DNA from: a virus
Virus record (IMG/VR): IMGVR_UViG_3300009155_000125
Coordinates: 1 to 36,415 of that record
Strand: one strand, 5' to 3'
DNA length: 36,415 nt
Shown here: in pieces, positions 2,892 through 36,050 of the stretch
Layout: each line of letters starts with the position of its first letter
How positions within the stretch are numbered: the stretch's first letter is position 1
Notes under the pieces: model-generated
Seen by the model: the letters and a program-made list of their open reading frames with translations, nothing else
What the model was told of the DNA's origin: nothing
Database searches by the model: none
Program-made: the position numbers and the translations under genes

Positions 2892-3193
2892 CGAACAATA
2901 CGTCCAGCATTCATATTTGCGCTAGCGTCAAGTTTGGCATGTAATCTTTTTGGTACTTGACCGCTGTTTTTAATTTTATCAATAACTTCCTTAAATTGAC
3001 TTCCTACAACTTTTTGTGGGTTTAATGTTGCATCCATTGCTAAAGAAGGACTGCTGGCTTGCCAGTCTCTTACAATTTTCTTTTTCTTGCAATTTGGGCA
3101 AGGTTTCTTGATTGGGGCATCTCTATCATTTAGAGATAACATTTCATCAAATGTATGTTCACACTTCTCACACTTAAAGGCATAATTAGGCAT
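2888..3193 (-). CDS. FmdB-type zinc-ribbon protein
   Basis: A 101-aa protein. It starts MPNYAFKCEKCEHTFDEML and continues PCPNCKKKKIVRDW, a CxxC...CxxC zinc ribbon of the FmdB-like type found in many bacteria and T4-like phages. The remaining 60 residues are polar and helical (VVGSQFKEVIDKIKNSG). Its ATG overlaps the end of the upstream HNH gene (GATGCCTAA), so translation is probably coupled. Its role is unknown; small zinc ribbons of this type are often proposed as regulators or nucleic-acid-binding factors. Confidence 0.7.
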   Translation of the reverse strand: MPNYAFKCEKCEHTFDEMLSLNDRDAPIKKPCPNCKKKKIVRDWQASSPSLAMDATLNPQKVVGSQFKEVIDKIKNSGQVPKRLHAKLDASANMNAGRIVR

Positions 3194-3680
3194 CTTTTTT
3201 CTTTCTAAAAGTAATTAGCATGTTTTCAAACAAGAAGCCATAGGAAGGTTCTTTTGGTTTGGATTTTAAATCCATTTTTGCTTCTTTGGGTGTCCTGTTT
3301 CCCTTTGCAAGATTGCAATCTCTGCATGCGGCCACCATATTGACCCAAGAAGAAGATCCACCTTTTGATTTGGGGGTAACGTGGTCTACGGTAGCATCTT
3401 TATCTGTCAATTCGATATTGCAGTACTGACAGCAATATTGATCTCTACGCAAAATATTTTGCCTAGATGGTGCTGCTTTCCTGTAAGGCAATTTTACATA
3501 ATATTTTAAAATTAAAACTTTTGGAATTTTAACTACCTTAGAAATGGACATAACTTCATAACATTCGTTTGAGTCATCACCCCAAACTTTGTCTCTACTT
3601 AAGAGTTTATAAGCTTTATTAATGGTAATAATATTCAGAGGGGTATTATCTTGATTGAGCAAGAGTACCTGTTTCTTCAT
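3186..3680 (-). CDS. HNH endonuclease
   Basis: A 164-aa HNH nuclease. The N-terminus MKKQVLLLNQDNTPLNI is the VLLLNxDxTPL start typical of a widespread phage and bacterial HNH family, and it supports the ATG at 3680 rather than longer in-frame starts. The nuclease core is YCCQYCNIELTDKDATVDHVTPKSKGG followed by NMVAACRDCNLAKGNRTP: CxxC, DH, N and CxxC are all present and the motif is intact. A late-type octamer CATAAATA (3698-3691, minus) lies 10 nt upstream. It may be a homing nuclease or a packaging-associated HNH; the neighbours do not decide. Confidence 0.8.
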   Translation of the reverse strand: MKKQVLLLNQDNTPLNIITINKAYKLLSRDKVWGDDSNECYEVMSISKVVKIPKVLILKYYVKLPYRKAAPSRQNILRRDQYCCQYCNIELTDKDATVDHVTPKSKGGSSSWVNMVAACRDCNLAKGNRTPKEAKMDLKSKPKEPSYGFLFENMLITFRKKKDA

Positions 3681-3690
3681 ATTCTTTAAG

Positions 3691-3710
3691 TATTTATGTA
3701 AATCTAAATA
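3691..3710. promoter_or_regulatory. Divergent late-type promoters
   Basis: The minus strand carries CATAAATA at 3698-3691, facing the HNH gene. The plus strand carries TCTAAATA at 3703-3710, facing the gene at 3721. Both differ from the late consensus at one position and both leave about 10 nt before the start codon. Confidence 0.5.
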
Positions 3711-3720
3711 TTTCATAGCC

Positions 3721-5493
3721 ATGGATAATAAACAAAATAGACAATTTTATTGGGAAGTTAAAAACTTCATGAGCAAAAATAACGTTCCTGCAGCTCCAAA
3801 GCCACAGAAACCAGATGTCATCTCTAGTGTAAAAAATGTTTTAGAACAAAACAACATATACAAACAATCCTCGTTTAATCCAAATATTAACTCACCAAAC
3901 ATCATTCGTCAAGCAATTAGTTCCATGGAAACTATAAGCGCTAATGGAACTCCTAATTGCAAAGCATTTACTAAAAATATTGCATCCAATCCTTTTAAAG
4001 TAATTAAAGAAGGTGTGTTTGATGAAGTTAATGCCGACATAGAAAAATATTCTAGAATTTCTGGAATGTCTCCCAATGCCACCAATGATGAACTTGAATA
4101 TCAAATTTCACAACAAGATATTCAACCCGGTGTTCCTTTAACTCCAGAACAGAAAGCTACTAGAGATCTTCAAGGTGCATTTCAAAGAAAACAGGCTGTT
4201 CAACAACAAATGGAAAAAGAAGCCAGAGTTCAATCTGGACAAACAAAAATAAATCCAGAAACTGGTGGAGAATACAGCCCAGTCCCCCAAAGTGCAAAAA
4301 ATACACAACAAGCACCAGCTCCTGCCCCAGAAGCACCAGATACACAACCTGATGATACATCTGATCAAGATGAGCCAACACGAGAAGATCAACAAGATAA
4401 TAAAACACAAACTACCGTAGATAGAGAAAGAGCAGCCACACCTGCACCCAAAGCAGTGGATGCTGAACTTGAAGCACGAGTAAAAGCTCGTATTGCAAAA
4501 CGTGAACGTGATATCAAAACAGAACGTCAAAGTGGCGAAGAAAATTTAGCATACCTTAGATCAAAAGGTGATGCTGCAGATCCCAGAGGTTTAGTGCGAG
4601 CAGCAAGACGTGCCAGAGGTGAAGGTACCAATCGACTTACCGATGAAGAAATTCGTGGTCAAGAAGAAAGAGAACTTGCAAGAAGACGTAGAACACCAGA
4701 AGAAAAAGCCGCACAAGCAAAAAAAGATAGAGATGTAGTTGATGATATGATAAGAAGAGCAGGAAATGCTCGAAGTAGAGAAGAACTGGCCGCAAGAGAA
4801 GCAAAAGAAAAAAGTGGTAAAGCACCAATGCCTTATTCTGAACGTGCAGGCTCAACTCCAGAAGAACGTAATGCAAATGCTCCAAAAGGCCCAATGCCTT
4901 ATTCAGAGCGTGGAGACGGTGCTCCTGCTGGTCAAGGCACAGGAAAATCTGTAAGCCCCGGTGCAATTAGTCAACCATCATCTACACCAGCACCAGCAAC
5001 TCCCGGAAAAACAACACCTCCCGGTAAGGCACCTGCTCCTGCAGGACAAGAGTCTTCACTTTCTTTAAAAATTTCTGATGGTACTCCATCAACCCCAGCA
5101 CAAACTGGTAGTCAAGTAAATGATAAGGTAAGACAAACTTTGGGGATGGGTGCATCTTCTGCTCCAGAACAAGCATCGTCTCCCGGTGTACAGGGGGCAA
5201 GAGCAACTTTAGGTTTAGGTTCGGGATCTGCTCCCGCCCAAACTACAACTCCCGGAGTTCAAGGAGCAAGAGCAACTTTAGGTCTAGGTGGTGGCGCCCC
5301 CGCAACTCCCGCAAAGGCACCCACACCCGCACCACAAAGTACAGCAAAACCTGCACCAACTCCAGCTCCTGCGTCTGGTGCAGTACCTAGTGTAAGAGAA
5401 ACTTTAGGATTGGGGCCAGCACCAGCAGCCAACAATACCCCAGAAGAAACAGAAGCACAGAAAAAAGCTAGACAAGCTTTAATGTCAAGATAA
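3721..5493 (+). CDS. Long disordered Ala/Pro/Lys-rich virion-type protein
   Basis: A 590-aa protein of unknown function. The ATG at 3721 (MDNKQNRQFYWEV) follows the late-type element; the longer frame would overlap the divergent HNH start. Residues 1-140 are ordinary. Residues 190-360 are a charged Arg/Glu/Lys helix-rich region (PEEKAAQAKKDRD). The C-terminal 220 residues are Pro/Ala/Gly-rich with internal repeats: PMPYSERAG/PMPYSERGD twice, and (V)RxTLGxG four times, two of them in the longer unit PGVQGARATLGLG. The repeats look like products of tandem duplication. It heads a run of three low-complexity genes and is likely virion-associated; no enzyme signature is seen. Confidence 0.6.
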   Translation: MDNKQNRQFYWEVKNFMSKNNVPAAPKPQKPDVISSVKNVLEQNNIYKQSSFNPNINSPNIIRQAISSMETISANGTPNCKAFTKNIASNPFKVIKEGVFDEVNADIEKYSRISGMSPNATNDELEYQISQQDIQPGVPLTPEQKATRDLQGAFQRKQAVQQQMEKEARVQSGQTKINPETGGEYSPVPQSAKNTQQAPAPAPEAPDTQPDDTSDQDEPTREDQQDNKTQTTVDRERAATPAPKAVDAELEARVKARIAKRERDIKTERQSGEENLAYLRSKGDAADPRGLVRAARRARGEGTNRLTDEEIRGQEERELARRRRTPEEKAAQAKKDRDVVDDMIRRAGNARSREELAAREAKEKSGKAPMPYSERAGSTPEERNANAPKGPMPYSERGDGAPAGQGTGKSVSPGAISQPSSTPAPATPGKTTPPGKAPAPAGQESSLSLKISDGTPSTPAQTGSQVNDKVRQTLGMGASSAPEQASSPGVQGARATLGLGSGSAPAQTTTPGVQGARATLGLGGGAPATPAKAPTPAPQSTAKPAPTPAPASGAVPSVRETLGLGPAPAANNTPEETEAQKKARQALMSR

Positions 5494-8125: not shown

Positions 8126-8785
8126 ATGCATATTATTAATAAAACATTTGTACACAAACCAATAACATTTGACGGTCAACTTAAAGAAGCTAGTTCAGAC
8201 GGGAAAAGATTATATGAAACTCCAGACGGAATCTTTCCATCTGTAACTACTGTTGTTGGATTTAAAAAACAACAGTTCTTTGCACAGTGGCGCGCAAAGA
8301 ATCCAGAAGAAAGCAAACGAGTAACGTCTCGTGGAACTAAATTTCATTCTGTAATAGAACAATATTTAAAAAATGAAGATCTAGATTATGACAATCTTCA
8401 TTCAAATTTAAAATCTTTGTTTTCTATATTACGGCCTGAAATAGACAAAATAGATAATATCGTTGCATTAGAAACTCCTCTATGGTCAAAGACCTTGGGA
8501 TTGGCTGGCAGAACAGATTGCATTGCCGAATATGATGGGAAGTTATCCATCATAGATTTTAAAGCCAGCACCAAACAAAAAAGAGCAAGTGACATTGACA
8601 ATTATTTTGCACAGGCTTGTGCATATGCTTTAATGTTTCAAGAAAGAACTGGAATTATTGTAGATAATTTTGCTATCTTGATTGCCTGCGAAGATGGCCT
8701 GCGTCAAGTATTCCAAGGAAAACCGATTACGCATGTCAAGGCATTGAAGTCTCTTATTAAGGAATACAACAATGGCCTTTTATGA
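8126..8785 (+). CDS. PD-(D/E)XK exonuclease, MGME1/RecB-like
   Basis: A 219-aa nuclease. Seen: the family opening FPSVTTVVGF; RGTKFHSVIEQYL with a conserved His; then LAGRTDCIAEYDGKLSIIDFKAS, where the Asp of GRTD and the DFK triad form the PD-(D/E)XK catalytic site; and YFAQACAYALMF, the QxxxY helix of the RecB/Cas4/MGME1 group. These are metal-dependent DNA exonucleases for replication or recombination. It sits at the head of a set of overlapping genes in the late block. No good late octamer precedes it (only a TTGAATAT-like stretch), so its expression class is unclear. Confidence 0.75.
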   Translation: MHIINKTFVHKPITFDGQLKEASSDGKRLYETPDGIFPSVTTVVGFKKQQFFAQWRAKNPEESKRVTSRGTKFHSVIEQYLKNEDLDYDNLHSNLKSLFSILRPEIDKIDNIVALETPLWSKTLGLAGRTDCIAEYDGKLSIIDFKASTKQKRASDIDNYFAQACAYALMFQERTGIIVDNFAILIACEDGLRQVFQGKPITHVKALKSLIKEYNNGLL

Positions 8786-9374
8786 AGAACCTACTTTAGA
8801 AAAAACTGTAAACCGCAAGGGGTCCAAATTATGGACTCAAATGAATGACAATTCTAAGTCAGCATTACACCGCCAGCAGTTTATACAACAGCATGGTGGT
8901 TTTTTTACTTTAATTGGTAAATATTGGAATTGGACTAGTGCTGTTAAAGAAAAGAATGGATATTGGTTAAAACGGGTTGATTCGGGAGAAAAAGTATTCT
9001 TTGAAAATATGTCAGAGTTTGCCAAATCTAATGGTATGACTGCCGTAAAAATTTGTGAACTCTTGAATGGTAAACGCAAAACATATAAGGGGTGGACTGC
9101 AGTCGAAATAAGAGAAGTAAAAGATAGCGTTGGTTCTTTTGAAAAAATTAAAGAACCAAAGGCTAAAAAGATACCCGTAACCAAAACAGCTATATTGGTT
9201 GACATCACCACCAATGAGCAAATTTTTGTAGATAACATCTCTCAATTTGCCAAAAGAAATGGTTTAGGGTATTCCAATCTAAAAGCTCTCATAAAAGGCA
9301 GGTCAAAAACCTATAAAAATTTAAAGGTATACAATCCTTTGGAGCAGTATAAGGATTTTTTAGAGCCTAAATAA
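8772..9374 (+). CDS. DNA-binding protein with two NUMOD1/homing-type helix-turn-helix repeats
   Basis: A 200-aa protein overlapping the end of the exonuclease by 14 bp. Residues about 77-115 (VFFENMSEFAKSNGMTAVK...LLNGKRKTYKGW) and about 156-190 (IFVDNISQFAKRNGLGYSN...LIKGRSKTYKN) are two copies of the short module found at the ends of phage homing endonucleases. There is no GIY-YIG or HNH catalytic core. It is therefore either a nuclease-less DNA-binding derivative or a regulator. Translational overlap with the nuclease suggests co-expression. Confidence 0.6.
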   Translation: MAFYEEPTLEKTVNRKGSKLWTQMNDNSKSALHRQQFIQQHGGFFTLIGKYWNWTSAVKEKNGYWLKRVDSGEKVFFENMSEFAKSNGMTAVKICELLNGKRKTYKGWTAVEIREVKDSVGSFEKIKEPKAKKIPVTKTAILVDITTNEQIFVDNISQFAKRNGLGYSNLKALIKGRSKTYKNLKVYNPLEQYKDFLEPK

Positions 9375-14240: not shown

Positions 14241-14456
14241 TCAATCTTGAATAAAATTCTTACAACACTTTGGTTTTGTGCAACCAGAATTTGCTCTGGC
14301 TTCATTGATGATTTTAGTATGGGCATCATCCCAACCAGTTTCCCATTCTTGCCAATAAACAGAATTTGATTCAAAAACGTTTGATGCTTTGTTGCCACCA
14401 GACATCCTAGCATCAAATCCTTTTTGGTATGCGGAACCGGGAATGTATGAGCTCAT
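14241..14456 (-). CDS. Ribosome-modulation-factor-like small protein
   Basis: A 71-aa protein. YQKGFDARMSGGNKAS followed by WQEWETGWDDA resembles the RMF-type pattern (GxxAxxxG...NPxxxxxxxxxWxxGWxxA) found in small proteins of Gammaproteobacteria and many phages. A Cys cluster closes the protein (CTKPKCCKNF). RMF binds the ribosome near the anti-Shine-Dalgarno; whether this protein does so is inference, though the tmRNA and tRNAs upstream in the same early block make a translation role attractive. Its ATG overlaps the preceding stop. Confidence 0.55.
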   Translation of the reverse strand: MSSYIPGSAYQKGFDARMSGGNKASNVFESNSVYWQEWETGWDDAHTKIINEARANSGCTKPKCCKNFIQD

Positions 14457-14919: not shown

Positions 14920-15219
14920 TCAGTTAGTGTCAAAAATTTGTTCATAAACCAATTTGCCCCGGTTGTCTGTAACGGAGACATATCGAACATGACGGCTCAT
15001 TGCGTCACTGATATTTAGTGGATCCTTAGGACCGAATGCCATGTGCTTGATCCAAGCAGGACATCCACCAAGGGAAATACGAACTTCGGCACCAGTTGCA
15101 TCAGTACCATAAAAATCAAATGCAGCCTTCTCACCATCATAATAGGTGAAGAAGCAATCGATAGAATCATACTTCTTGCGAACATCGGCAAGAGTCATTT
15201 CTGTAGCGGTCTTAGCCAT
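14920..15219 (-). CDS. Hypothetical early protein
   Basis: A 99-aa protein of unknown function. MAKTATEMTLADVRKKYDSIDCFFTYYDGEKAAFDFYGTD suggests an alpha/beta fold with a short helix and then beta strands; no motif is recognised. Its ATG overlaps the end of the upstream 57-aa gene (CCTAATGGCTAAG), implying coupled translation. Confidence 0.6.
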   Translation of the reverse strand: MAKTATEMTLADVRKKYDSIDCFFTYYDGEKAAFDFYGTDATGAEVRISLGGCPAWIKHMAFGPKDPLNISDAMSRHVRYVSVTDNRGKLVYEQIFDTN

Positions 15220-15385
15220 TAGGCAATCTCACTTGCTTGACTGAAATAGGTAGTTGGCCAATCGCGTCAAGCACACGAAGAGTACCAACTTTAGCCTCCA
15301 TGAGGCTCTTGTGACGGTTATTACGAAGACGGGTTTTGCGCTTTCTGTGCGCCCTAGCAGTTATACGTTGTTTAGAATTAGGCAT
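15212..15385 (-). CDS. 57-aa basic protein heading the early operon
   Basis: A short ORF reading MPNSKQRITARAHRKRKTRL... and ending VKQVRLPNG. It is rich in Arg and Lys in the first 30 residues, suggesting nucleic-acid binding. The ATG is 6 nt beyond a near-consensus sigma70 -10, so the message would be leaderless, and the ORF overlaps the next gene by 8 nt. Promoter placement and coupling are the evidence that it is real. Function unknown. Confidence 0.7.
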   Translation of the reverse strand: MPNSKQRITARAHRKRKTRLRNNRHKSLMEAKVGTLRVLDAIGQLPISVKQVRLPNG

Positions 15386-15391
15386 ATGAAT

Positions 15392-15419
15392 AGTATACTC
15401 TTTATTTATGGTCAGTCAA
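15392..15419 (-). promoter_or_regulatory. Early sigma70-type promoter
   Basis: Minus strand: TTGACT (15419-15414), 16-bp spacer, TATACT (15397-15392). The ATG at 15385 is 6 nt beyond the -10. The spacer contains a late-like CATAAATA. Confidence 0.85.
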
Positions 15420-15423
15420 ATAA

Positions 15424-15448
15424 CAAAACCCCTTTTGAGGGGGGTTTT
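15424..15448 (-). terminator. Terminator downstream of tmRNA
   Basis: AAAACCCC/GGGGTTTT arms; on the minus strand it is followed by a T-rich tail (TTTTGTTATTT), directly after the tmRNA coding piece. Confidence 0.75.
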
Positions 15449-15765
15449 GGGTCGATTCAGATGCGGGAGACCAAACCCCACTGCTTTAAGCAGCCACTGC
15501 CATATAATTGGCAATCATTTTTGCAACTGTTTATTTACGACACTTGTTACCCGTGTCGGGTATCTCCTTTTTCATTACTCTGCGCCAATCGATTCCTTTC
15601 GACCCCGTGACCCGAAGCCTAGGACTTCGGGAAATGCCCCGCTGCTACGAGGACTTGATTCGCCGTTTTCAGAGGATTGCAGATTCTCTGACTTAGGCTA
15701 ATGGAGTCGGGGGGATTCGAACCCCCGTGTTGTACGCATTTCAATCCAATATCAACAATACCTAA
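15449..15765 (-). ncRNA. ssrA: Circularly permuted two-piece tmRNA
   Basis: Rescues stalled ribosomes by tagging nascent peptides. On the minus strand the 3' (acceptor) piece comes first, then a spacer, then the 5' (coding) piece. Acceptor piece: T arm GGGGG-TTCGAAT-CCCCC (15726-15710), then CGACTCC and discriminator A (15702); CCA is not encoded. Coding piece: starts GGGGTCG at 15606, which pairs with CGACTCC and has G-U at the third pair, the alanine identity element. It then has GGAATCGA (like GGAUUCGAC), PK1 (15561-15539; ACCC/GGGT with GACAC/GTGTC), resume codon GCA at 15524, tag AKMIANYMAVAA and stop 15488-15486. P2 can form between TTGGCGCA (15588-15581) and TGCGTACAA (15738-15730). 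A hairpin CTGCTT/AAGCAG closes the tag and a GGGGTTTGG helix follows. The spacer 15607-15701 holds two hairpins probably removed by processing. The outer ends are approximate. Confidence 0.88.
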
Positions 15766-15771
15766 GATTAT

Positions 15772-16254
15772 TTAGTCAAATCTATTAGTTTTTGTTTCCC
15801 ACCAAAAATGAACCATGTCATTTTTACCATCAAAATAAATTGGACAAATATCAGGTTTAAAAACAGAAGTGGTACTACACGCTACACAACAAAATAATAG
15901 TTTATCTTCAGAAAATCCATAGTCCAAAAGTTTATTTTTTATTTTTTGAAAGTTATTACCAGATAGACATCCACTATCAACCACAATTAATCTTTCATAT
16001 GGATCAATTTGATTTGGATGAATGATGGCTTCAAATTCTGATTTATAAGGAATATTTACTGGTTCAATATCAATTGGTTCATTTTTTGTAGACAATTTGT
16101 GTGACAATAATTGTGCTAATATTCCAGAATATTCATAACTTAACTGCAATATTGCAGTTTTTTCATTTATAAATTTTTTTGTTCGTATTTCTTCACAAAT
16201 TTTGTCTATTGCTTGAAGTTCCCATGACATTGTGATGTATAAATTATTTTTCAT
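15772..16254 (-). CDS. Phosphoribosyltransferase-like protein
   Basis: A 160-aa protein. The ATG at 16254 (MKNNLYITMSWELQ) is chosen because longer frames run into tRNA-Tyr; ATG 16230 is also possible. The core has TAILQLSYEYSGILAQLLS, then RLIVVDSGCLSGNNFQKIKNKLL, which resembles the PRPP-binding loop of type I phosphoribosyltransferases (hydrophobic strand, acid, small residues, S/TG), although the usual second Asp is Ser. LLFCCVACSTTSVFKPDI then looks like the next strand. It lies between tRNA-Tyr and the tmRNA, so it is co-transcribed with RNA genes. A nucleotide or modified-base role is possible; confidence in the family is moderate. Confidence 0.55.
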   Translation of the reverse strand: MKNNLYITMSWELQAIDKICEEIRTKKFINEKTAILQLSYEYSGILAQLLSHKLSTKNEPIDIEPVNIPYKSEFEAIIHPNQIDPYERLIVVDSGCLSGNNFQKIKNKLLDYGFSEDKLLFCCVACSTTSVFKPDICPIYFDGKNDMVHFWWETKTNRFD

Positions 16255-16272
16255 ATTTGTTGTATATCCAAA

Positions 16273-16355
16273 TGCGAGCTGAAGGATTCGAACCTTCGTA
16301 GACATAAGCCAGCAGATTTACAGTCTGCCCTCGTTGACCGCTTGAGTAAACTCGC
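16273..16355 (-). tRNA. tRNA-Tyr (GTA)
   Basis: Acceptor GCGAGTT/AGCTCGC, anticodon stem GCAGA/TCTGC around CTGTAAA, a long class II variable arm, T arm GAAGG-TTCGAAT-CCTTC, discriminator A; CCA is not encoded. Confidence 0.93.
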
Positions 16356-16512: not shown

Positions 16513-16584
16513 AGCGAACGATGGGATTTGAACCCACGACCATCGGTTTGGAAAACCGAGACTCTACCACTGAGTTACATTCGC
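16513..16584 (-). tRNA. tRNA-Gly (TCC)
   Basis: Acceptor GCGAATG/CGTTCGC with one T-G pair, D arm CTC/GAG, anticodon stem TCGGT/ACCGA around TTTCCAA, T arm GTGGG-TTCAAAT-CCCAT (final pair G-T), discriminator T; CCA is not encoded. Confidence 0.93.
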
Positions 16585-33928: not shown

Positions 33929-36016
33929 TTACATCACCGGGTGGTTGTAGATGGCATCCACCATCCCCTTCACGGGCTGACCCGCCACGATGTCGATGTA
34001 CCGGGAGAGGAACACGCGACTGCACGAACGCTTGCCCATCGTCTTGATGAAGGTGTTCTTGACCTTCGTGAAGTTGCCCGAAGTGTTCGTGGCATCCGCA
34101 TCGACCACGATCTTGGGGGTGCGGATCAGGAAGAACGAATCGTATCCGGGGAACGTGTCCCCGTGAACGATGATCGCACCGTCCGCGTAGGCTTCCTTTG
34201 CCGCCTTGAAGCGGGGGGAGTCGGTCATCGTGAACTTGTGTCCACGCGCCCAAACCATATCGCGCTCCTTGTTGGACAGGCAGAAGGCGTGGAAGTCACG
34301 CTCCGTCAGGTTGTTCGCGCCCACGAACATTCCAACGCACCGGGCGTTCAGGGACTTGCGGAGTGCGCGGAACATGGTGGCGAGAGTCATGTTGCCGATG
34401 CAGACGTTGCTGTAGTCCGCGAGGTTGAGCCGTTCCGCCGTGCCAAGCACCTCGTTCATCACGGTGAGCGAACCCTGACCGTTGTGGTAATAGTGCAGGA
34501 CAGGAGCCGTCCCGACACACTCGCTGCTGACCGTCACGCCATTGGGCTGACCATCCGTCACGACCATCAGGGTCGGGATCTGAATGTTGTTGGTCTGAAC
34601 CCAGTCCACCATGAACTGGGAGGCAATGGCGACCGCCTCAACCGTGGGAGTGCCACCCAAACCAATGAGGGAGGGACGGCTACGGGTTCCCAACGCCAAG
34701 CACTCGTAGAGGTAGGCGAGGAGGGTTTCGCGGGTGGACGCATCGTCCCGCGAGGAGGCGAGAGTGATGAGTTTGCACGGGCCAACCAAAGCCCCAGTCG
34801 CACACTTACGCGCCATCTCCGGCATGAAGGGCAAGTTGTTGCCCAACCGCTCCAACACATGGCTACCGATGTCCGTGAAGCCGAACACCTCGAACGGGAT
34901 CTTGGCCTTCTCACAGAACCACACCAACTGGAGAACCTGAAGGAAGCAGTCCTTGAGGCTGTGGGACATCGACCCGCTGAAGTCAAGGAGGAACACGATG
35001 CCGTGGTTCTTGCCGTCCTGCTTGATGATCTTGCTGATGAAGATGTCATCGTGGGTGCGGTACTGGTGCAACTTGTCCATGTTCAGCAGACCCGTCTGCT
35101 TGGGACGTTCGCGGCGGATCTCGTCCGCTGCCTTGCGGCGTTCAAACTGGGCGACCAACTGGCGCACGAACGCATCGGACTCCTTGACGAACTTCCGGTA
35201 CTCGTCCATGACGAGCGGGGGATTGCCGTACTGGTAAGTCTCAAAGTCCTTGATGACCGTCTTGCTGTCGATGATCCCGTCCATGACGTTCTTCATCCCG
35301 GTGAAGCAGATGGAGGAGGCAGCGTACTTCTCGCCCGTCTTGGTTCCGACACCATCGGCATCGGTGGTCATCTCCTTGAGCATGGTTTCCGCGCCGTCCA
35401 TGTCACCTTCGGACAAGTGCTGCTCGTACTCCTGCACGACCTTCTGCATCTTGGGGTGCTTGTAGAGAGCCTTGGCGACCGCAATGACCTGCGGGAACGT
35501 GACCACGTTGTCGATGATGTCCGCGATCCCCATCTCGTCCGCATCCAAGGGAACGTCGATGAAGCCGGGAACGCCCCACTTGAAGTGCATATTCAACTTG
35601 TTGAGGAGGGTCTGCTCCGCGAAGTTCACCTTGGAGAAGGAGAACATATCGGTGTCCACGATCTCCTTGTAGCCAAGGAAGAAGTCGCGGCGCGTACCGG
35701 GGTACTTGTCCTTCATCAACTTCTCAATGCGAACGTCCTCAACCGTGTTGGCGATCCGCTGAAGGAGCGGGATGTGGAACCCCTCTGCCTCTGCTGCCTT
35801 GAGCAGTTCATCGGACTCCTTGTAGGGAGTCCACAGGGCGTGGCCGATCTCGTGGGCGATCAGCATGGTCTGAAGAGTCTCCGACACATTCCACACGGGC
35901 AGGATGAGGTGGCGGGACTTGGTGTCGAACGATGCCGTTTCAGCGTTCTTGTCGAACGAGAACGAGAGGTTTTCGGATGCGAGTGCCTTGGCGAAGATGG
36001 AGAGAGAGGTGTTCAT
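33929..36016 (-). CDS. VWA-domain protein with N-terminal HEXXH metallopeptidase-like motif
   Basis: A 695-aa protein. ATG 36016 lies 6 nt beyond the early -10. Residues about 45-65 read TMLIAHEIGHALWTPYKE, an HEXXH zinc motif, with RIANTVEDVRIEKLM following as in CobT/VWA-type proteins where an E-D-x-R-I helix completes the site. Residues about 320-520 are a VWA domain: VFLLDFSGSMSHSLK supplies the MIDAS DxSxS, LGGTPTVEA the Thr, and TLMVVTDGQPNG the later Asp. T4-like cyanophages encode a similar VWA protein that in bacteria pairs with MoxR/CobS-type AAA+ ATPases. GC content is much higher (roughly 55-60 percent by eye) than the late genes. The function in infection is unknown. Confidence 0.78.
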   Translation of the reverse strand: MNTSLSIFAKALASENLSFSFDKNAETASFDTKSRHLILPVWNVSETLQTMLIAHEIGHALWTPYKESDELLKAAEAEGFHIPLLQRIANTVEDVRIEKLMKDKYPGTRRDFFLGYKEIVDTDMFSFSKVNFAEQTLLNKLNMHFKWGVPGFIDVPLDADEMGIADIIDNVVTFPQVIAVAKALYKHPKMQKVVQEYEQHLSEGDMDGAETMLKEMTTDADGVGTKTGEKYAASSICFTGMKNVMDGIIDSKTVIKDFETYQYGNPPLVMDEYRKFVKESDAFVRQLVAQFERRKAADEIRRERPKQTGLLNMDKLHQYRTHDDIFISKIIKQDGKNHGIVFLLDFSGSMSHSLKDCFLQVLQLVWFCEKAKIPFEVFGFTDIGSHVLERLGNNLPFMPEMARKCATGALVGPCKLITLASSRDDASTRETLLAYLYECLALGTRSRPSLIGLGGTPTVEAVAIASQFMVDWVQTNNIQIPTLMVVTDGQPNGVTVSSECVGTAPVLHYYHNGQGSLTVMNEVLGTAERLNLADYSNVCIGNMTLATMFRALRKSLNARCVGMFVGANNLTERDFHAFCLSNKERDMVWARGHKFTMTDSPRFKAAKEAYADGAIIVHGDTFPGYDSFFLIRTPKIVVDADATNTSGNFTKVKNTFIKTMGKRSCSRVFLSRYIDIVAGQPVKGMVDAIYNHPVM

Positions 36017-36022
36017 GCGCGT

Positions 36023-36050
36023 ATTGTAACCCAAGGTTGGTGGCTGTCAA
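36023..36050 (-). promoter_or_regulatory. Early sigma70-type promoter of the VWA gene
   Basis: Minus strand: TTGACA (36050-36045), 16-bp spacer, TACAAT (36028-36023), ATG at 36016. Confidence 0.85.

Follow-up and report, generated by a model that had tools for sequence, protein, structure and literature searches.

Phage-encoded tmRNAs are known both in the standard one-piece form, for example in Streptomyces and Enterococcus phages, and in a circularly permuted, two-piece form. A count over 18,146 phage genomes in 2021 gave 53 two-piece tmRNAs, of which 50 were marine or aquatic (PMC9004378); a database of 2025 lists 79 unique tmRNA sequences from phages, all forms taken together (PMC11915505). 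Among T4-like phages, a permuted tmRNA is carried by the OM43 methylophage Melnitz, whose alphaproteobacterial-type tmRNA is associated with a glutamine riboswitch, by the Pelagibacter phage Mosig and by other aquatic myophages (PMC9004378). It is likewise present in the T4-like cyanophages S-CRM01 and S-SSM7, the two that were tested here and in which the permuted gene was found again.

The locus considered here lies on the minus strand of an IMG/VR virus record of 36,415 bases, a linear fragment that was analysed over its whole length and is referred to below as the window. With the Rfam families tmRNA_permuted (RF04321) and beta_tmRNA (RF01850, the closest of the older subtypes) it has in common the gene order, the acceptor and T domain, PK1, the resume region, the stop hairpin and the 3′ pseudoknot, but its beta score is 46 against a cut-off of 84, its tag most likely has eight residues and its spacer is long and folded. 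The tags of S-CRM01 and S-SSM7 are longer (19 and 31 residues according to ARAGORN), their spacers measure just 6 and 5 nt against 95 nt in the window, and the two have no nucleotide relationship to the window-type tmRNAs by blastn, forming a different sequence group. Unlike Melnitz, the window gives no Rfam match to a glutamine riboswitch in 15300-15900 up to an E of 1. With the standard phage tmRNAs matched by blastn, which are presumed to be one-piece because of where their T arm lies, only that arm is shared. The gene belongs to a known kind, within which it stands out above all by its folded spacer, and also by a short tag and a divergent beta-like core. The original prediction had implied that such a gene is rare in T4-like phages, a claim that fails because of the two-piece phage tmRNAs already published, 53 by 2021 (PMC9004378), and the S-CRM01 and S-SSM7 cases.

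Identity and extent of the gene

RF04321 matches the minus strand at 15486-15762 with 70.3 bits (cut-off 47, E 1e-11), the model being covered end to end, and ARAGORN calls a permuted tmRNA (tmRNA*) at 15395-15792 on the same strand, together with five tRNAs on the contig. The 46.0 bits of the older beta_tmRNA model extend over 15421-15793, again aligned end to end. These matches bear out the original prediction, which had placed a permuted tmRNA at 15449-15765 and had proposed a search with Rfam covariance models as its check. The place is essentially right; the complete gene runs from 15762 to 15450, its start slightly inside the predicted limit, with a terminator at 15449-15424 at its end (Table 1). 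The 7-bp acceptor stem pairs GGGGTCG with CGACTCC and includes G3-U70, the 3′ strand preceding the 5′ strand. This pairing, the T loop TTCGAAT, PK1 and the stop hairpin had all been predicted; each is present in the sequence and kept by selection in the relatives. ARAGORN and Rfam find no second tmRNA, in any order, in the whole 36,415-base contig, which rules out the reading of the two halves as remnants of a standard-order tmRNA located elsewhere on it.

Table 1. Positions of the tmRNA elements and of neighbouring features in the window
Feature	Position	Strand	Sequence or pairing	Basis or remark
tRNA-Gly (tcc)	16513..16584	minus		upstream of tmRNA; ARAGORN, Rfam
tRNA-Tyr (gta)	16273..16355	minus		upstream of tmRNA; tRNA-Tyr also upstream in many relatives
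Putative T4-late-like promoter	15769..15775	minus	CTAAATA	6 nt before GG at 15762; consensus resemblance
Acceptor piece	15703..15762	minus	5′ strand of helix P2 (GGUAU...), T arm, 3′ acceptor strand	
T arm	15726-15710	minus	GGGGG-TTCGAAT-CCCCC	compensatory T-stem changes, 17 distinct relatives
3′ acceptor strand	15709-15703	minus	CGACTCC	compensatory changes, 17 distinct relatives
Discriminator	15702	minus	A	CCA not encoded
Intervening segment (IVS), 95 nt, outside mature tmRNA	15607..15701	minus		alignment, covariation, z -3.2
IVS outer stem and inner stem	within 15607..15701	minus	GCC/GGC; CAGAG/CUCUG	alignment
IVS loop-loop pseudoknot	within 15607..15701	minus	CUGC loop with GCAG in second hairpin	alignment
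IVS third hairpin	within 15607..15701	minus	CCCGAAG-UCCUAGG-CUUCGGG	alignment
5′ acceptor strand, start of coding piece	15600..15606	minus	GGGGTCG (G3-U70)	pairing in relatives
PK1	15538..15561	minus	ACCC/GGGU + GACAC/GUGUC	second stem: 3 pairs change on both sides
Upstream GCA	15522..15524	minus	within conserved element AACAGUUGCAA	resume codon of ARAGORN and of the original prediction; most likely not so used
Tag frame (most likely)	15486..15512	minus	GCC AAT TAT ATG GCA GTG GCT GCT TAA (ANYMAVAA*)	Rfam alignments, relatives' frame
Stop-codon hairpin	15481..15493	minus	CUGCU-UAA-AGCAG	one compensatory change
Pseudoknot 3′ of tag	15450..15481	minus	GUGGG/CCCGC + GGUC/GACC	second stem rewritten in relatives
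Terminator hairpin	15424..15449	minus	AAAACCCC/GGGGUUUU, T-rich tail	GGCUCC/GGAGCC instead in L009
Putative sigma70-like promoter	15392..15419	minus	TTGACT-16-TATACT	for downstream small genes; consensus match

Conservation of the tmRNA fold

Relatives of the locus are numerous among uncultivated phages. The adjacent gene at 15772-16305 gave access to the first two close relatives with tmRNAs (L002 and L009), and the two closest relatives score 77.6 and 73.5 bits with RF04321. A 23-mer of the coding piece retrieved 66 IMG/VR contigs, a set into which the conservation of that 23-mer is therefore built; a second word, from the 3′ end, retrieved 18 contigs, six of them new to the set, and a gapped pattern retrieved 82. 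A pattern drawn from the spacer matched 43 viral contigs within window-type tmRNA genes, seven of these contigs being previously unseen and also placing the match within permuted tmRNA genes. With the pattern of the class E spacers (see below) included, the relatives come to at least 90 IMG/VR phage contigs, from which 84 loci were parsed, three of them truncated. Against the cultured phages of INPHARED, blastn in distant mode gave only T-arm or chance matches, whether the query was the entire gene, its coding core or either of two spacers.

The two halves pair in 81 of the 84 loci, 80 at 7/7 positions and L030 at 6/7, the other three being the truncated ones; this 99% is biased upward and partly by construction, as the 5′ acceptor strand of the relatives was located through complementarity. 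G3-U70 is invariant across all 81 complete loci, partly by construction since U70 belongs to the search pattern, which does not hold for the number of pair types. The distance from the 5′ acceptor strand to the tag is constant at 70-72 nt. Eight of the 12 pairs of the T and acceptor stems are altered on both sides (17 distinct versions); the cells in which both partners differ number 28, where shuffles give 6.0 and slid controls 0-3. Elsewhere in the molecule, the second stem of PK1 changes from GACAC/GUGUC to GUUUC/GAAAC, the downstream pseudoknot occurs as GGUC/GACC, GACCA/UGGUC, GAUCC/GGAUC and CCCGGUUU/AAACCGGG, and both strands of the terminator hairpin are altered in relatives. By this comparative evidence the RNA of the window is under selection as a tmRNA, and split tmRNAs emerge as a stable, selected gene across a broad uncultivated group of T4-like phages rather than as a curiosity.

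Resume codon and tag peptide

The original prediction had read a 12-residue tag, AKMIANYMAVAA, beginning at a GCA resume codon at 15524-15522. This GCA is in frame in the window, yet it is out of frame in 37 of the 84 loci, where the distance from GCA to stop is one base longer than in the window and in the 47 in-frame loci. The one-base indel adjoins the upstream GCA in the alignment of the relatives, the AACAGUUGCAA element around it is identical in in-frame and out-of-frame loci, and loci picked by their spacer rather than by their coding piece carry the same element. Were the upstream GCA to set the frame, the 37 loci would read nonsense; in L002, for example, the result would be AKNNC-stop. 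A second Ala codon, 12 bases 3′ of the GCA, is in frame in 84 of 84 loci, which share the tag consensus A-x-x-[ML]-[AR]-[MVI]-A-A with TAA or TGA stops, and both Rfam alignments (RF04321 and beta_tmRNA) place the resume codon at GCC 15512. As only the second of these two codons keeps the frame throughout, the first losing it in 37 loci, the tag of the window is most likely ANYMAVAA, with GCC 15512-15510 as resume codon. The predicted tag and resume codon are thereby replaced, while the AVAA end is retained.

The base at position -4 of the resume codon bears on a different account, in which the tag truly is AKMIANYMAVAA: the loss of one base would have brought the upstream GCA into frame, an A-to-G change at -4 would have weakened the old resume codon, and the resume site would have shifted 12 nt upstream, extending the tag from 8 to 12 residues. 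The GCC of the window is preceded by G at 15516 (position -4) and by A at position -3, whereas the upstream GCA has A at -4 (CAGUU-GCA). An A is near-universal at this position, and the A86G variant of the E. coli tmRNA has very low activity (PMC2481249), which disfavours a GCC preceded by G at -4. ARAGORN, moreover, gives AKMIANYMAVAA for the window but ANYMAMAA for L065, its near twin with A at -4 and the same spacing. Nevertheless, we consider this account unlikely. The same upstream context occurs in the 37 loci whose GCA is out of frame; at position -4, 64 of the 84 loci have A and 20 have G, and 16 of these 20 have the G although their upstream GCA is out of frame; and the upstream GCA aligns with gcA in the beta_tmRNA consensus of Rfam, a conserved non-coding element of beta-type tmRNAs. 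With ANYMAVAA as the preferred reading, automatic tag calls can mislead where the upstream GCA happens to be in frame. The 84 parsed genes (more were found) form a large comparative set on the choice of resume codon, and the natural +1 indel together with the A/G variation at -4 offers a ready-made experiment on that choice.

A structured spacer between the two pieces

The 95-nt segment between the acceptor and coding pieces, on which the original prediction was silent, would normally be viewed as a throwaway spacer, but here it holds a conserved RNA fold. The spacers of classes A and B (50 loci, 71-99 nt) have a common core of an outer stem and two hairpins whose loops pair with each other, as CUGC/GCAG, as CUGU/ACAG in L050 or as CUGCG/CGCAG in L087; class A has an extra third hairpin, with the loop UCCUAGG in most members. 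In the spacer, 14 of 28 pairs are changed on both sides (21 distinct versions); the count for the outer stem is too low, as MAFFT shifts this stem by one base in L027 and L087, where by eye it reads GGC/GCC and GGU/GCC instead of GCC/GGC. The compensatory cells number 43, whereas shuffles yield 12.7 and slid controls 3-10, and the fold of the window spacer has a z of -3.2. An Rfam search of the spacer, self-cleaving ribozymes included, gave no match; a hit to isrK at 23 bits (cut-off 50) was taken as chance. Judged by its covariation, the spacer is a conserved, pseudoknotted RNA within the clade of window-type tmRNAs, which is new.

Other spacers are found on the same tmRNA core. Those of class C measure 39 nt (5 loci), those of class D 5-6 nt (18 loci), and those of class E, which are unrelated and folded, 122-173 nt (8 loci). 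It follows that the spacer is dispensable in sequence but kept as a fold where it is present. Tentatively, and with the odds somewhat against it, the spacer may be a functional RNA of its own, controlling processing or stability, acting as a sensor or being released as a small RNA, and at the same time a module that is exchanged, with at least four kinds on one core.

Two further observations concern these segments. The start of the window spacer, UAGCCUA (15700-15694), is complementary to UAGGCU in the third hairpin (15621-15616), whose loop contains the palindrome CCUAGG, so that an alternative fold or a dimer contact is possible. Class E (L031, L041, L059, L067, L072, L081, L086 and L103) has the sequence GGUUAGC...GUUGAGAAGACUCG...CCUUCCUAACC, which folds with a z of -3.2 in L059 and has no match in an Rfam search.

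The phage group and the genomic setting

The phage group that carries the window-type tmRNA is, by its gene content, T4-like and related to cyanophages, in keeping with the T4-like genome of the original prediction. The T4 capsid protein gp23 was found on 6 of the 48 related contigs searched, 44 of which have a tmRNA of the window type; in one related contig it is 56-58% identical to gp23 of Synechococcus phages. The closest cultured relatives of two window genes are Kyanoviridae. There is no T4-type capsid among the PHROG matches of the 36-kb window fragment, and no psbA among 44 related contigs. All six occurrences of the motif TATAAATA in the contig are on its plus strand, several of them shortly ahead of a start codon. 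This distribution fits late promoters of the T4 type, the late genes being on that strand, and so would support a T4-like phage. Sites of TATAAATA or close to it stand on the plus strand at, for example, 926, 2225, 2331, 19070 and 23621.

The gene had been described as flanked by tRNAs in an early operon. The tRNAs do stand upstream, tRNA-Gly and tRNA-Tyr lying on the same strand as the tmRNA together with two small genes. The early operon is unsupported, because TAAATA, which resembles a T4 late promoter, lies 6 nt upstream and because the terminator and the putative sigma70-like promoter split the gene from the downstream operon. Of 45 distinct relatives, 18 have TAAATA at a distance of 4-6 nt upstream, whereas it occurs in less than 1% of the 15-base windows of the contig. 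This arrangement would argue against a simple early operon.

Proposed role during infection

Gene order, pairings with their compensatory changes, the tag frame, the terminator and the lack of a detectable SmpB gene on the contigs were computed here; for processing, charging, the use of host SmpB, proteolysis and timing we infer the following course. A single transcript would run from near GG15762 to the terminator, host tRNA-processing enzymes would excise the 95-nt folded spacer, and the acceptor and coding pieces would stay joined through the acceptor stem and P2. After CCA addition the molecule could be charged with alanine by virtue of G3-U70 and, with SmpB of the host, enter ribosomes stalled on broken messages, where translation would resume at GCC 15512 and append ANYMAVAA. 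The tag, ending in AVAA, would be expected to be read by host proteases of the ClpXP type, and ribosomes would be released during infection. No SmpB gene was detected on 44 related contigs. A role in trans-translation, that is ribosome rescue, with host SmpB during infection is likely, and the phage may benefit by recycling ribosomes from degraded host messages or by sustaining rescue once the host RNA is destroyed.

A functional phage-encoded two-piece tmRNA of this kind, freed of its spacer, charged with alanine, tagging with ANYMAVAA and freeing ribosomes with host SmpB, has in our estimate a probability of about 0.88. The RNA might instead compete with the tmRNA or the SmpB of the host or serve as a decoy for either, or its tRNA-like part might act alone; a precedent is a form from phage DS6A that has no tag frame and inhibits the endogenous tmRNA in E. 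coli (cited in PMC11915505). A decoy would need neither tag frame nor stop codon nor downstream pseudoknot, whereas all three are conserved over the 84 loci, and the conservation of the tag frame in particular makes this role improbable. Permuted tmRNAs also exist in bacteria and phages often acquire host genes, so the possibility that the gene was recently captured from a host and is neutral or without function has been weighed as well. Such a gene would hardly be conserved with compensatory changes over at least 90 phage contigs, nor stay below the cut-offs of the host-type beta, alpha and cyanobacterial models (46 against 84 bits for beta_tmRNA), and the 19-mer GTAAATAAACAGTTGCAAA from the core has only three bacterial matches in a collection of 84,980 genomes, about the chance level and none of them a tmRNA. 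Recent capture is accordingly the least probable of these readings, and very improbable in itself. We retain the functional tmRNA as the preferred one.

Neighbouring genes

Several other genes of the window deserve mention. At the end of the contig, a 701-aa frame (33929-36034, minus strand) stands opposite a 743-aa frame, both without a family match in the libraries tried; one of the two possibly encodes a tail protein or a repetitive one, with the other as its mirror frame. HNH and homing-endonuclease-like genes (3186-3722, minus strand, and 8772-9374, plus strand) lie amid replication genes. Directly after the tmRNA terminator and the sigma70-like promoter, 15212-15385 on the minus strand encodes a very basic protein of 57 aa (MPNSKQRITARAHRKRKTRLRNNRHKSLMEAK...), without a Pfam or PDB match and faintly like a ribosomal protein, and the start of this gene is visible 3′ of the tmRNA in several relatives (L113, L114, L115 and L047). 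The 71-aa product of 14241-14456 on the minus strand matches the Pfam family RMF (ribosome modulation factor) with an E of 1.5e-5, just under the curated cut-off; an RMF match is present on 15 of 44 related contigs, in one case above the cut-off, and homologues are encoded by 38 viral contigs. A phage protein resembling a hibernation factor may be encoded near the phage tmRNA.
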